Shown here: in pieces, positions 23,683-33,388 of the stretch
Position numbering within the stretch: the first letter of the stretch is position 1
Layout: every line of letters starts with the position of its first letter
IMG/VR virus record: IMGVR_UViG_3300021440_000639
Span: 1-33,388 of that record
Reading direction: 5' to 3' (one strand)
Length of the DNA: 33,388 nucleotides
Origin: a virus
Position numbers and translations under genes: made by a program
The notes under the pieces: model-generated
Told to the model about the DNA's origin: nothing
Database searches by the model: none
What the model saw: only the letters and a program-made list of their open reading frames with translations

Positions 23683-24138
23683 TCAGAACGGAATGTCGTC
23701 GTCTATGTCGCTCCGAGTGCCGCGCGGGGTGCCGGGGTCAGGCGACTGATCATAATTCCCTTGGGCCGAACGATCACCGCTGTCGGGCTTGCGATTCAGC
23801 AGGATCAGGGTGCCATTGAAAGGGCGCAACACAACCTCGGTGCTGTAGCGGTCAGCGCCCGACTGGTCCTGCCATTTGCGGGTTTCAAGCTGGCCTTCCA
23901 GATAGACCTTTGAGCCTTTTGCCAAGAACCGCTCGGCGACATCGCACAGCCCTTCGCTGAAAATCGCCACCGAATGCCATTCGGTGCGTTCCTTGCGCTC
24001 CCCCGTGGACTTGTCCTTCCAGCGTTCCGATGTTGCGATGGACAGGTTGCAGACCATGCCGCCATTGCTGAATGTCTTGGTTTCCGGGTCGCGGCCCAGC
24101 GTGCCAATCAGTTGAACTTTGTTAAGCGATGCTGACAT
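23683..24138 (-). CDS. ssb: Single-stranded DNA-binding protein
   Basis: 151 residues from the ATG at 24138 (MSASLNKVQLIGTLGRDPET), the canonical SSB start; upstream frame is a shadow. The OB fold is complete (VCNLSIATSERW, ERTEWHSVAIFSEGLCDVAERF, KVYLEGQLETRKWQDQSG, STEVVLRPFNGTL) and the C-terminus ends DIDDDIPF, the acidic tip that binds partner proteins. It coats single-stranded DNA during phage replication and recombination. It overlaps the methyltransferase gene by 17 bases. Confidence 0.93.
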   Translation of the reverse strand: MSASLNKVQLIGTLGRDPETKTFSNGGMVCNLSIATSERWKDKSTGERKERTEWHSVAIFSEGLCDVAERFLAKGSKVYLEGQLETRKWQDQSGADRYSTEVVLRPFNGTLILLNRKPDSGDRSAQGNYDQSPDPGTPRGTRSDIDDDIPF

Positions 24139-24742
24139 TTTCAGATCCTTCGTTGCGGGTGAACTTTGTGGTTTCGTTGCCCCAGACCGCCCAGCCTGGG
24201 CGGGACTGGCGCGAGAACACTTCGATGCGGCGTGCATCTGGCATCAGCCTTTCCGCCGCGAGGAATGCTTCCTCGGGTTTGCGCGAGTGTTCGCGCGCCA
24301 ACCCTTCGATCACGCTCCGAGTGCCCCGCGTCGTCTTTGGCTTGCCTATCGTGCCTATCAGGAATGGCTCCCCTGCGCTGCGCAGCACATATCCGGTCCC
24401 GAAGGCCTGCTTGCCGGTGACGGTCTTTTTTGACCAGTGGCCCGCCGTCTTGAAGGTAAATCCCCAGCCCCGCAGCACGTCGAGGGCTTGCGGCAATAAT
24501 GGATTGGTGGCCCAGAGCCACAGCAGGCAGTCACGCGCGCCCAGGGCCTCCCCTACGGGCAGCGCGGCAATGTCTGCCAGCGTCATGGTCTGGTAGTGCG
24601 CCTCTGGGCCTTTCTTGGCTCCCTTGGCGCTGAAATTGACGAACCGCCACGGCGGATCAGCCATGATCAGATCGAACCCGCCTACAGGGCGCAATTCGCA
24701 CCATTGCCGGATGATCTGTCCCGCCGAAAAAACGTCAGGCAT
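24122..24742 (-). CDS. MT-A70 family adenine methyltransferase
   Basis: 206 residues. FDLIMADPPWRF at 23-34 contains the DPPW catalytic motif of N6-adenine methyltransferases; the following segments (ALGARDCLLWLWATN, LRGWGFTFKTAGHWSKK, GTGYVLRSAGEPFLIG, RPGWAVWGNE) are the usual MT-A70 order. It probably methylates adenine in phage DNA, perhaps to resist host restriction. No restriction partner is present. It is co-transcribed with ssb. Confidence 0.88.
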   Translation of the reverse strand: MPDVFSAGQIIRQWCELRPVGGFDLIMADPPWRFVNFSAKGAKKGPEAHYQTMTLADIAALPVGEALGARDCLLWLWATNPLLPQALDVLRGWGFTFKTAGHWSKKTVTGKQAFGTGYVLRSAGEPFLIGTIGKPKTTRGTRSVIEGLAREHSRKPEEAFLAAERLMPDARRIEVFSRQSRPGWAVWGNETTKFTRNEGSENVSIA

Positions 24743-32385: not shown

Positions 32386-32525
32386 TCATCTACCTTTGGT
32401 GGGCTATCTACACCTACGCCACAATCGGGGCCGCTGTCGCCGGATGGATTGTTTGGTTGGTGTGGAGGGACAGGAACGAGTGCTGCGACTGTAAAGATGA
32501 AAAGGAGCAGGAGGAACGCAAATGA
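32382..32525 (+). CDS. Small single-pass membrane protein
   Basis: 47 codons from the ATG at 32382 to the stop at 32525, ATGA overlaps at both ends. An aromatic-rich transmembrane helix (MIIYLWWAIYTYATIGAAVA then GWIVWLVWR) is followed by a charged, cysteine-containing tail (NECCDCKDEKEQEERK) that would face the cytoplasm. It may be a holin-like or membrane-anchoring peptide. It was missed by length thresholds. Confidence 0.6.
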   Translation: MIIYLWWAIYTYATIGAAVAGWIVWLVWRDRNECCDCKDEKEQEERK

Positions 32526-33259
32526 CATACATTCTTCGCACAGTCGCCGCTGATATGAAAAGCCGTGGCGGTTTTATCTGGCCGGAAAGCGGCCCGGTGT
32601 CGTGTCCCGATTGGGATGCCACACCCGAATGCGGCAATGGCCTGCACGGGTTTTTGTGGGGCGAGGGTAACGGATCACTCGCCAACTGGTCAGACGATGC
32701 AAAATGGCTGGTGGTCAAGGTTGACAAATATGTTGACCTGAAAGGCAAGGTCAAGTTTCCGCGCGGCGAAGTTGTTTTCTGCGGCACCCGCAAGGGTGCA
32801 ACAGATGAAATAATCAGGCTCGGAGCCAAGGGCGCTGTTATTGGCGCAATAGCAACGGCGGGCGACTATGGCACCGCAACGACGGGCTACGAGGGCACCG
32901 CAACGGCGGGCCACTATGGCACCGCAACGGTGGGCGACGAGGGCACCGCAACGGCGGGCGACGGTGGCACCGCAACGGCGGGCGACGGTGGCACCGCAAC
33001 GGCGGGCTACAGGGGCACCGCAACGGCGGGCGACTGGGGCACCGCAACGGCGGGCTACGGTGGCACAGCAACGGTGGGCTACAGGGGCACCGCAACGGCG
33101 GGCTACAGGGGCACCGCAACGGCGGGCAACTATGGCACCATCATCATTAAATACTGGGATGGCGCGCGGTATCGCCTCTGTGTCGGATATGTCGGAGGGG
33201 ACGGCATAGAGCCAAACCGCGCCTATAAAGTCGTCTCTGGAAAGCTGGTGGCAGCATGA
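32522..33259 (+). CDS. Protein with ice-nucleation-like octapeptide repeats (DUF7666-like)
   Basis: 245 residues. The N-terminal 110 residues are a globular domain (MTYILRTVAADMKSRGGFIW, CGNGLHGFLWGEGNGSLANW, DAKWLVVKVDKYVDLKGKVK) found in phage proteins that I recall as DUF7666, from memory. Residues 111-206 are twelve 8-residue repeats, consensus ATAG(D/Y)xGT. This is nearly the octamer of bacterial ice-nucleation proteins (AGYGSTxT): a TxT in each unit would form a threonine ladder on a beta-solenoid. The last 39 residues form a cap (IIIKYWDGARYRLCVGYVGG). The role in phage is unknown; antifreeze activity is not established. Confidence 0.7.
   Translation: MTYILRTVAADMKSRGGFIWPESGPVSCPDWDATPECGNGLHGFLWGEGNGSLANWSDDAKWLVVKVDKYVDLKGKVKFPRGEVVFCGTRKGATDEIIRLGAKGAVIGAIATAGDYGTATTGYEGTATAGHYGTATVGDEGTATAGDGGTATAGDGGTATAGYRGTATAGDWGTATAGYGGTATVGYRGTATAGYRGTATAGNYGTIIIKYWDGARYRLCVGYVGGDGIEPNRAYKVVSGKLVAA
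32852..33139 (+). repeat. Twelve 24-bp in-frame tandem repeats
   Basis: The unit GCAACGGCGGGC-nnn-nnn-GGCACC recurs every 24 bases. The variable codons give Asp, Tyr, Glu, His, Trp, Gly, Arg and Asn, while Ala-Thr-Ala-Gly and Gly-Thr are almost invariant at the DNA level too, which suggests recent expansion. It codes for residues 111-206 of the protein at 32522-33259. Confidence 0.85.
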
Positions 33260-33388
33260 CCTACATTCTTCGCACAGTCGCCGCTGATATGAAAAGCCGT
33301 GGCGGTTTTATCTGGCCGGAAAGCGGCCCGGTGTCGTGTCCCGATTGGGATGCCACACCCGAATGCGGCAATGGCCTGCACGGGTTTT
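33256..33388 (+). CDS. Second copy of the octapeptide-repeat gene, partial
   Basis: The ATG at 33256 overlaps the previous stop as ATGA and codes 44 visible residues that are identical to the start of the protein at 32522 (MTYILRTVAADMKSRGGFIW and onwards). Only one base differs (position 33261, C instead of A, synonymous). The gene runs off the right edge, so the second repeat tract is not visible. It is a recent tandem duplication. Confidence 0.75.
   Translation, partial: MTYILRTVAADMKSRGGFIWPESGPVSCPDWDATPECGNGLHGF
33262..33388 (+). repeat. 127-base exact direct repeat of 32528-32654 at the window end
   Basis: Bases 33262-33388 equal 32528-32654 without a mismatch and the window stops exactly where copy 1 would continue. 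The copies are 734 bases apart. The length of 127 equals a common maximum k-mer used by short-read assemblers, so the window end may be a graph break at this repeat. Confidence 0.85.

Follow-up and report, generated by a model that had tools for sequence, protein, structure and literature searches.

Two groups of described proteins bear on the gene reported here: phage proteins built around short, variable peptide repeats, and the bacterial ice-nucleation proteins (INPs), which cause frost on plants. Among phages, the closest described system is Bbp36 of Bordetella phages BPP-1, BMP-1 and BIP-1. Its array, annotated as 'variable region 2' (VR2) in BPP-1, consists of 9-20 repeats of a 24-bp element made up of a 19-bp repeat and a 5-bp variable spacer; Bbp36 is not essential, and VR2 has not been tied to tropism (PMC2884959). 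A second relative, gp52 of Burkholderia phage Mica, is annotated as 'ice nucleation protein', with an INP noted in the annotation as a BLAST match. An INP role, as a factor of phytopathogens, was proposed for this gene by the Mica authors (PMC7883832). Mycobacteriophage Tweety gp54 also carries an array of repeats, in which two residues are constant and two vary, and the number of repeats differs between phages (PMC2884959). INPs of the InaZ type (Pfam PF00818) contain about 30-70 coils of 16 residues with a tyrosine ladder, 10-12 R-coils and a linker of ∼50 residues; in PbINP, activity is lost when few R-coils are left (PMC10727499).

Here we describe a new member of the Bbp36 (VR2) family at the end of IMG/VR virus record IMGVR_UViG_3300021440_000639. 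The record is a complete linear viral record of 33,388 bases that ends at position 33388, and its whole length is referred to below as the window. The head and packaging genes of the window, including terminase and major head protein, lie on the minus strand, as does an MT-A70 family methyltransferase at 24122-24742 (Pfam E 7e-30). On the plus strand lies a module with an HTH regulator, a member of an exonuclease-annotated PHROG and several genes whose families are unknown. At the far end of this module sits a 245-residue open reading frame, 32522-33259 (+), with a Shine-Dalgarno sequence, AGGAGG, read at 32509-32514 (+), 7 nt before the start codon. The encoded protein has three parts: an N-terminal domain of DUF7666 type (residues 1-110; 32522-32851, +), an array of 12 tandem 24-bp units encoding ATAGxxGT octapeptides (residues 111-206; 32852-33139, +), and a 41-residue C-terminal cap (residues 205-245; 33134-33256, +). 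A second copy of the gene begins at 33256 (+) and runs to the end of the contig at 33388.

Family membership is clear from profile searches. Residues 3-154 match phrog_18079 (E 1.3e-63), and the protein stands barely above the Pfam DUF7666 cut-off (28.3 bits against 27). Like the window protein, Bbp36 is encoded in an early region and has the cap, 24-bp units coding GTATAGxx and an N-domain ∼41% identical; host and phage are different, and Bbp36 is a single gene where the window shows the start of a second copy. Mica gp52 shares the three-part architecture, with an N-domain 47% identical but a shorter array. Tweety gp54, in contrast, does not match the N-domain model of the family. Rebel gp36, from another mycobacteriophage (L170:1656-2318), has a DUF7666 domain with the DW, CGxGLH and KxK motifs, but its few octad-like repeats (GSAHVEAR) lie before rather than after this domain.

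The family extends well beyond these named relatives. Scans of IMG/VR yielded 35 loci, and scans that used an N-domain alignment yielded 201 confirmed relatives, 80 of which were kept. Fourteen further relatives were found in bacterial genomes of several phyla, and a plasmid search returned one P. aeruginosa record. This phage-wide distribution does not suggest the phytopathogen-factor reading put forward for Mica. Across the family, arrays range from 1-2 to about 26 octads, and some branches have GHASAAG or SSTAASSG in place of the TxT core. Nine loci (L077, L096, L098, L099, L103, L106, L107, L113 and L119) join the same N-domain to repeats with a 9-residue period (GHASATGDY, SSTAASSGY). One 140-residue protein (L053:3983-4405) has the family N-domain with no repeats after it, and in two Martelella loci (L108, 3884-4531, and L128, 5884-6531) the N-domain is spread across two frames, which is likely a broken prophage copy. 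No constant neighbour gene that would hint at a pathway was found among the relatives; the recurrent neighbours look RecT-like, exonuclease-like and methylase-like when read from their translations, without a library search.

The preliminary description of this DNA had noted that the octads resemble those of INPs and had placed them behind a different N-terminal phage domain. The resemblance proved stronger than it had proposed, extending as homology across N-domain, octads and cap, and the second statement was wrong, as the phage domain is itself homologous to that of real INPs. An N-domain model built from ten phage-family proteins matches nine of nine INPs at their N-termini (104-112 bits), and hhalign comparison of the N-domain and INP profiles gives 99.94%. 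These INPs come from a Pseudomonas genus reached through an RsmY match: PF00818 has matches in 14 of its 399 genomes, and nine of the gene regions were then read. With one INP, BLASTP aligns the window protein at 43% identity over 98 residues of the N-domain (E 1e-21), and a second alignment runs from the last coils into the cap. A cap model from phage-family proteins likewise matches the C-terminal end of all nine INPs. D213 and Y235 of the window cap are spaced as D1208 and Y1230 of PbINP, which are two of the three residues altered in a cap mutant with most of its activity gone (PMC10727499). The octads of both groups have their two variable residues in the same place.

Profile libraries reflect this relationship unevenly. 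INPs match phrog_18079 with E values of 5e-58 to 7e-71, the best stretch beginning in the N-domain, and the window protein is not matched by PF00818 at E 10; Pfam keeps the two families apart as DUF7666 and PF00818. PF00818 does match some of the phage relatives, one of which (L070) passes both Pfam cut-offs: at L070:3938-4975, a DUF7666 domain is joined to STLTGG octads that score 38.5 bits against the ice-nucleation cut-off of 27, forming a bridge between the families. An order-wide N-domain search of 391 genomes returned only the known copy of the centre genome (L134) and a false match (L138), and no INP was found in the genus of genome G010. From the sequence comparisons, the window protein is almost certainly a short INP homologue from end to end. 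No statement of full-length homology between INPs and this phage family was found in the searchable literature, which leaves out most subscription journals, and recent searchable INP papers, among them a 2026 phylogeny in which fungal INPs are traced back to bacteria, make no mention of phages. Within the searchable literature, the Mica annotation is the nearest to a statement of the link (PMC7883832).

The array itself is regular. Residues 111-206 form 12 consecutive octads of the pattern A-T-[AVT]-G-x-x-G-T, as a reading of the open reading frame confirmed for both the coordinates and the count given earlier, and TxT is present in each. Tandem Repeats Finder reports a 24-bp period with 11.5 copies, 88% matches, no indels and a score of 377. 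The first variable residue (x1) reads, in order, D Y H D D D Y D Y Y Y N. AlphaFold2, run on the window protein with 14 relatives, returned a model with mean pLDDT 94.8 and pTM 0.84, in which a 4-residue strand recurs every 8 residues across the array, in agreement with the beta-solenoid that had been proposed. The stacked strands that the solenoid analogy calls for are thus present in the prediction. Neither is the octamer match a product of chance composition: more than 200 relatives share the N-domain, and such arrays were present in those that were read. A Pfam DUF4774 match of the window protein was set aside as compositional, its best stretch spanning the repeats only. The full protein found no PDB sequence match at E 10, the N-domain profile found one meaningless PDB match (E 5.9), Foldseek against the PDB found none at E 0.001 for the full-protein or the N-domain model, and NCBIfam and PADLOC searches found no match.

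Variation in the array follows a simple rule. The preliminary description had pointed to two varying codons per unit, and this held across the 69 genes of 6 or more units for which mean within-gene pairwise differences were computed. The 18 core nucleotides of the unit differ by 0-0.045, while the three bases of the variable codons differ by 0.52/0.15/0.18 (x1) and 0.54/0.36/0.27 (x2), nearly all of it non-synonymous. Put differently, about 65% of unit pairs differ at the variable codons, and the difference is nearly always one of amino acid. Residue use is restricted, with x1 chiefly D, Y or N and x2 chiefly R, S, K, W, G or E. The core codons vary between genes, with 33 consensus types in the 69 genes; thus, units are homogenised within each gene. 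A diversity-generating retroelement was considered as the source of variation, but the pattern is unsupportive, as the first base of x1 varies and the middle base is mostly kept.

Arrays also change as wholes. Among Pseudomonas prophages, 14 pairs are identical in the DNA that flanks the array on either side, and in no pair is the array shared; the 226 units of these prophages comprise only 14 distinct 24-mers. Four records of one Bordetella phage species hold 14, 20, 20 and 7 octads. Some of the arrays compared across the family were assembled from short reads, and their lengths may be wrong. Length turnover was seen in these Pseudomonas prophages and Bordetella phages, the nearest relative of the window gene being ∼70% identical in the N-domain. 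The array comparison in prophage pairs and the codon variation together support the earlier suggestion of a conserved core with a diversified surface, and we are highly confident that arrays turn over fast while their flanks change more slowly.

The N-domain, modelled alone, is predicted at pLDDT 96.7. Of 680 PDB chains aligned with VIA-align, only eight score Z 2 or more; each of the six entries listed has an ADP-ribosyltransferase (ART) fold, with weak Z scores of 2.5-4.8. Because these weak scores agree with one another, an ART-like fold is suggested by the model. Matches to the N-domain among the predicted viral proteins of BFVD begin with a DUF7666 relative, followed by several phage RIIB proteins and mimivirus ankyrin-repeat proteins; in these RIIB and ankyrin-repeat models, the shared fold again lies beside repeat arrays. 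T4 RIIB contains a CSRGLH motif, but its sequence match to the N-domain is not significant (hhalign probability 1.5%).

How the phage proteins and INPs came to share an ancestor was approached with an N-domain tree of 97 phage-family and 7 INP sequences. All INPs fall in a single clade (100/100), set on a long branch (0.96), and the phage-family sequences are much more diverse. Rooting with an outgroup gave two very long branches and left the tree unrooted, and the data do not reject (p-AU 0.87) a topology in which the phages form a clade separate from INPs. Each of F18, D30, C37, G38, H42 and K76 occurs in 96-97 of the 97 phage-family rows and in none of the INPs, with the reservation that the conservation of C37-H42 was partly preselected, some loci having been retrieved with a pattern containing CG[NH]GLHG; F18, D30 and K76 were not. 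Loci from other search patterns also keep this motif, and of the six residues the D, C, G, H and K are retained in a distant DUF7666 protein, that of phage Rebel. Two INP loci that were examined lie among ordinary chromosomal genes. Since N-domain residues that are invariant in phages have been lost in INPs, the direction from phage to INP is favoured, its polarity being drawn from these residues only. INPs would then be a domesticated branch in which a phage-type protein lost its working site, a reading that we consider reasonably probable from sequence; descent from INP to phage, or from a common non-phage ancestor, is less probable.

The second gene copy raises the question of whether the duplication is real. 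Only its first 133 nt (33256-33388), or 44 codons, lie in the window. A single silent difference in codon 2 (ACC for ACA) separates it from the first copy, after which 127 nt are identical up to the contig end, and no suffix of the contig longer than these 127 nt has an earlier occurrence in it. A contig that ends after exactly 127 repeated bases suggests a de Bruijn assembly with k=127 that stopped at a repeat node, although the assembler is not stated. As such an assembly would end there in any case, the identical stretch is uninformative about the array of the second copy. This exact length, and the 25 related viral contigs that likewise stop inside the gene (including L026, L029, L032, L047, L052, L056, L061 and L070), would fit a second copy that is an assembly artefact with no duplication behind it. 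However, the duplication is probably real, because the start codon of the second copy overlaps the stop codon of the first (ATGA), its upstream context is distinct and relatives carry duplicates: in a circular phage contig, whose ends overlap by 114 bases, two copies with 8 and 13 octads are separated by 738 bp, and in a Gluconacetobacter prophage two copies lie side by side and have diverged. Together with the silent difference, these points make an artefact improbable. Of the tandem duplication described earlier, the start directly downstream and the identical protein over 44 codons stand; the window does not support a full copy, whose repeats would lie beyond its end. Assemblies, viral and other, probably lose or truncate this gene systematically.

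Turning from the gene to its product, homology to INPs might suggest that the window protein is itself a functional ice-nucleating or antifreeze-like ice-binding protein of the phage or its lysogen, acting through TxT ladders. The TxT in every octad, the flat predicted solenoid, the true INP homology and the role put forward by the Mica authors (PMC7883832) all speak for it. The window array, however, has 12 octads, equal to 6 coils, with no separate basic block of the R-coil kind, no continuous tyrosine ladder and no linker. The idea that phage octads follow the 16-residue coils of INPs failed, as 61 phage arrays have no lag-2 enrichment and no 16-residue periodicity, against 0.585 at lag 2 and 0.15 at lag 1 in INPs. 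Ice nucleation is not expected given the published dependence on R-coils (PMC10727499), TxT is replaced in other branches of the family, members occur in phages of the warm hosts P. aeruginosa and Bordetella, and the ice-nucleation profile does not recognise the protein. A genuine ice role, which the preliminary description had entertained, is therefore most unlikely. A different possibility places the activity in the N-domain, as an ART-like enzyme or a RIIB-like anti-exclusion module that the solenoid merely targets. The agreement of the listed PDB entries on ART folds, the RIIB proteins among the BFVD matches and the conserved D30, C37, H42 and K76 are consistent with such an effector; the structural scores are weak, though, and the C..GLH motif of T4 RIIB comes with no significant sequence match, and we regard this reading as rather unlikely. 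The main rival is that the protein is a self-assembling scaffold or spacer, with the array as a ruler in which the number and order of units drift neutrally by slippage and exposed residues are unconstrained. INP multimers do form fibres by way of the solenoid (PMC10727499), recombination between tandem 24-bp units is easy, and the family tolerates its whole range of array lengths. Neutral drift would, however, leave many silent changes, so the near absence of synonymous differences, with 0.52-0.54 at the first base of the variable codons and 0.18-0.27 at the third, speaks against a scaffold, as does the non-random choice of residues at both positions. The scaffold thus seems an unlikely account, if one to be taken more seriously than the others.

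The explanation that we prefer combines INP homology, a fast array and an accessory role. The octads are predicted to form a rigid beta-solenoid, on which the two variable residues of each octad would be exposed. D30, C37, H42 and K76 would make up a working site that is kept in phages and lost in INPs. The protein itself may be a non-essential accessory protein made early, its solenoid serving as a binding surface that can be adjusted when a host or anti-phage target varies; gene duplication and the recombination of 24-bp units could renew this surface. The anti-defence idea of the preliminary description would thus form one part of this tentative account. In INPs, a phage-type protein would have been domesticated on the bacterial chromosome and its array would have grown into 16-residue, water-ordering coils. 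Taken as a whole, with homology, fast array, tunable accessory surface and domestication together, this explanation stands at about an even chance. The host or defence-target role of the solenoid protein is its most tentative part, somewhat better placed than the scaffold but still well short of probable.

By full-length homology, these findings connect the best-studied ice nucleators with a variable region of phages that has long gone unexplained, a link that seems new. The INP N-domain is widely used as a membrane anchor for surface display, and its nature is now brought into question. A bolder proposal is that bacterial INPs, and fungal INPs through later transfer, are a domesticated branch of a phage solenoid family, that the INP N-domain is a decayed ART-like phage domain and that the intact phage protein presents a shuffleable surface to a host or defence target; we hold this to be a little less probable than its negation, and if true it would provide a testable candidate for the origin of INPs. 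For the phages themselves, the arrays look like a simple route to protein-surface variation by the shuffling of units, and the family amounts to a natural library of stable, predicted solenoids with variable surfaces.
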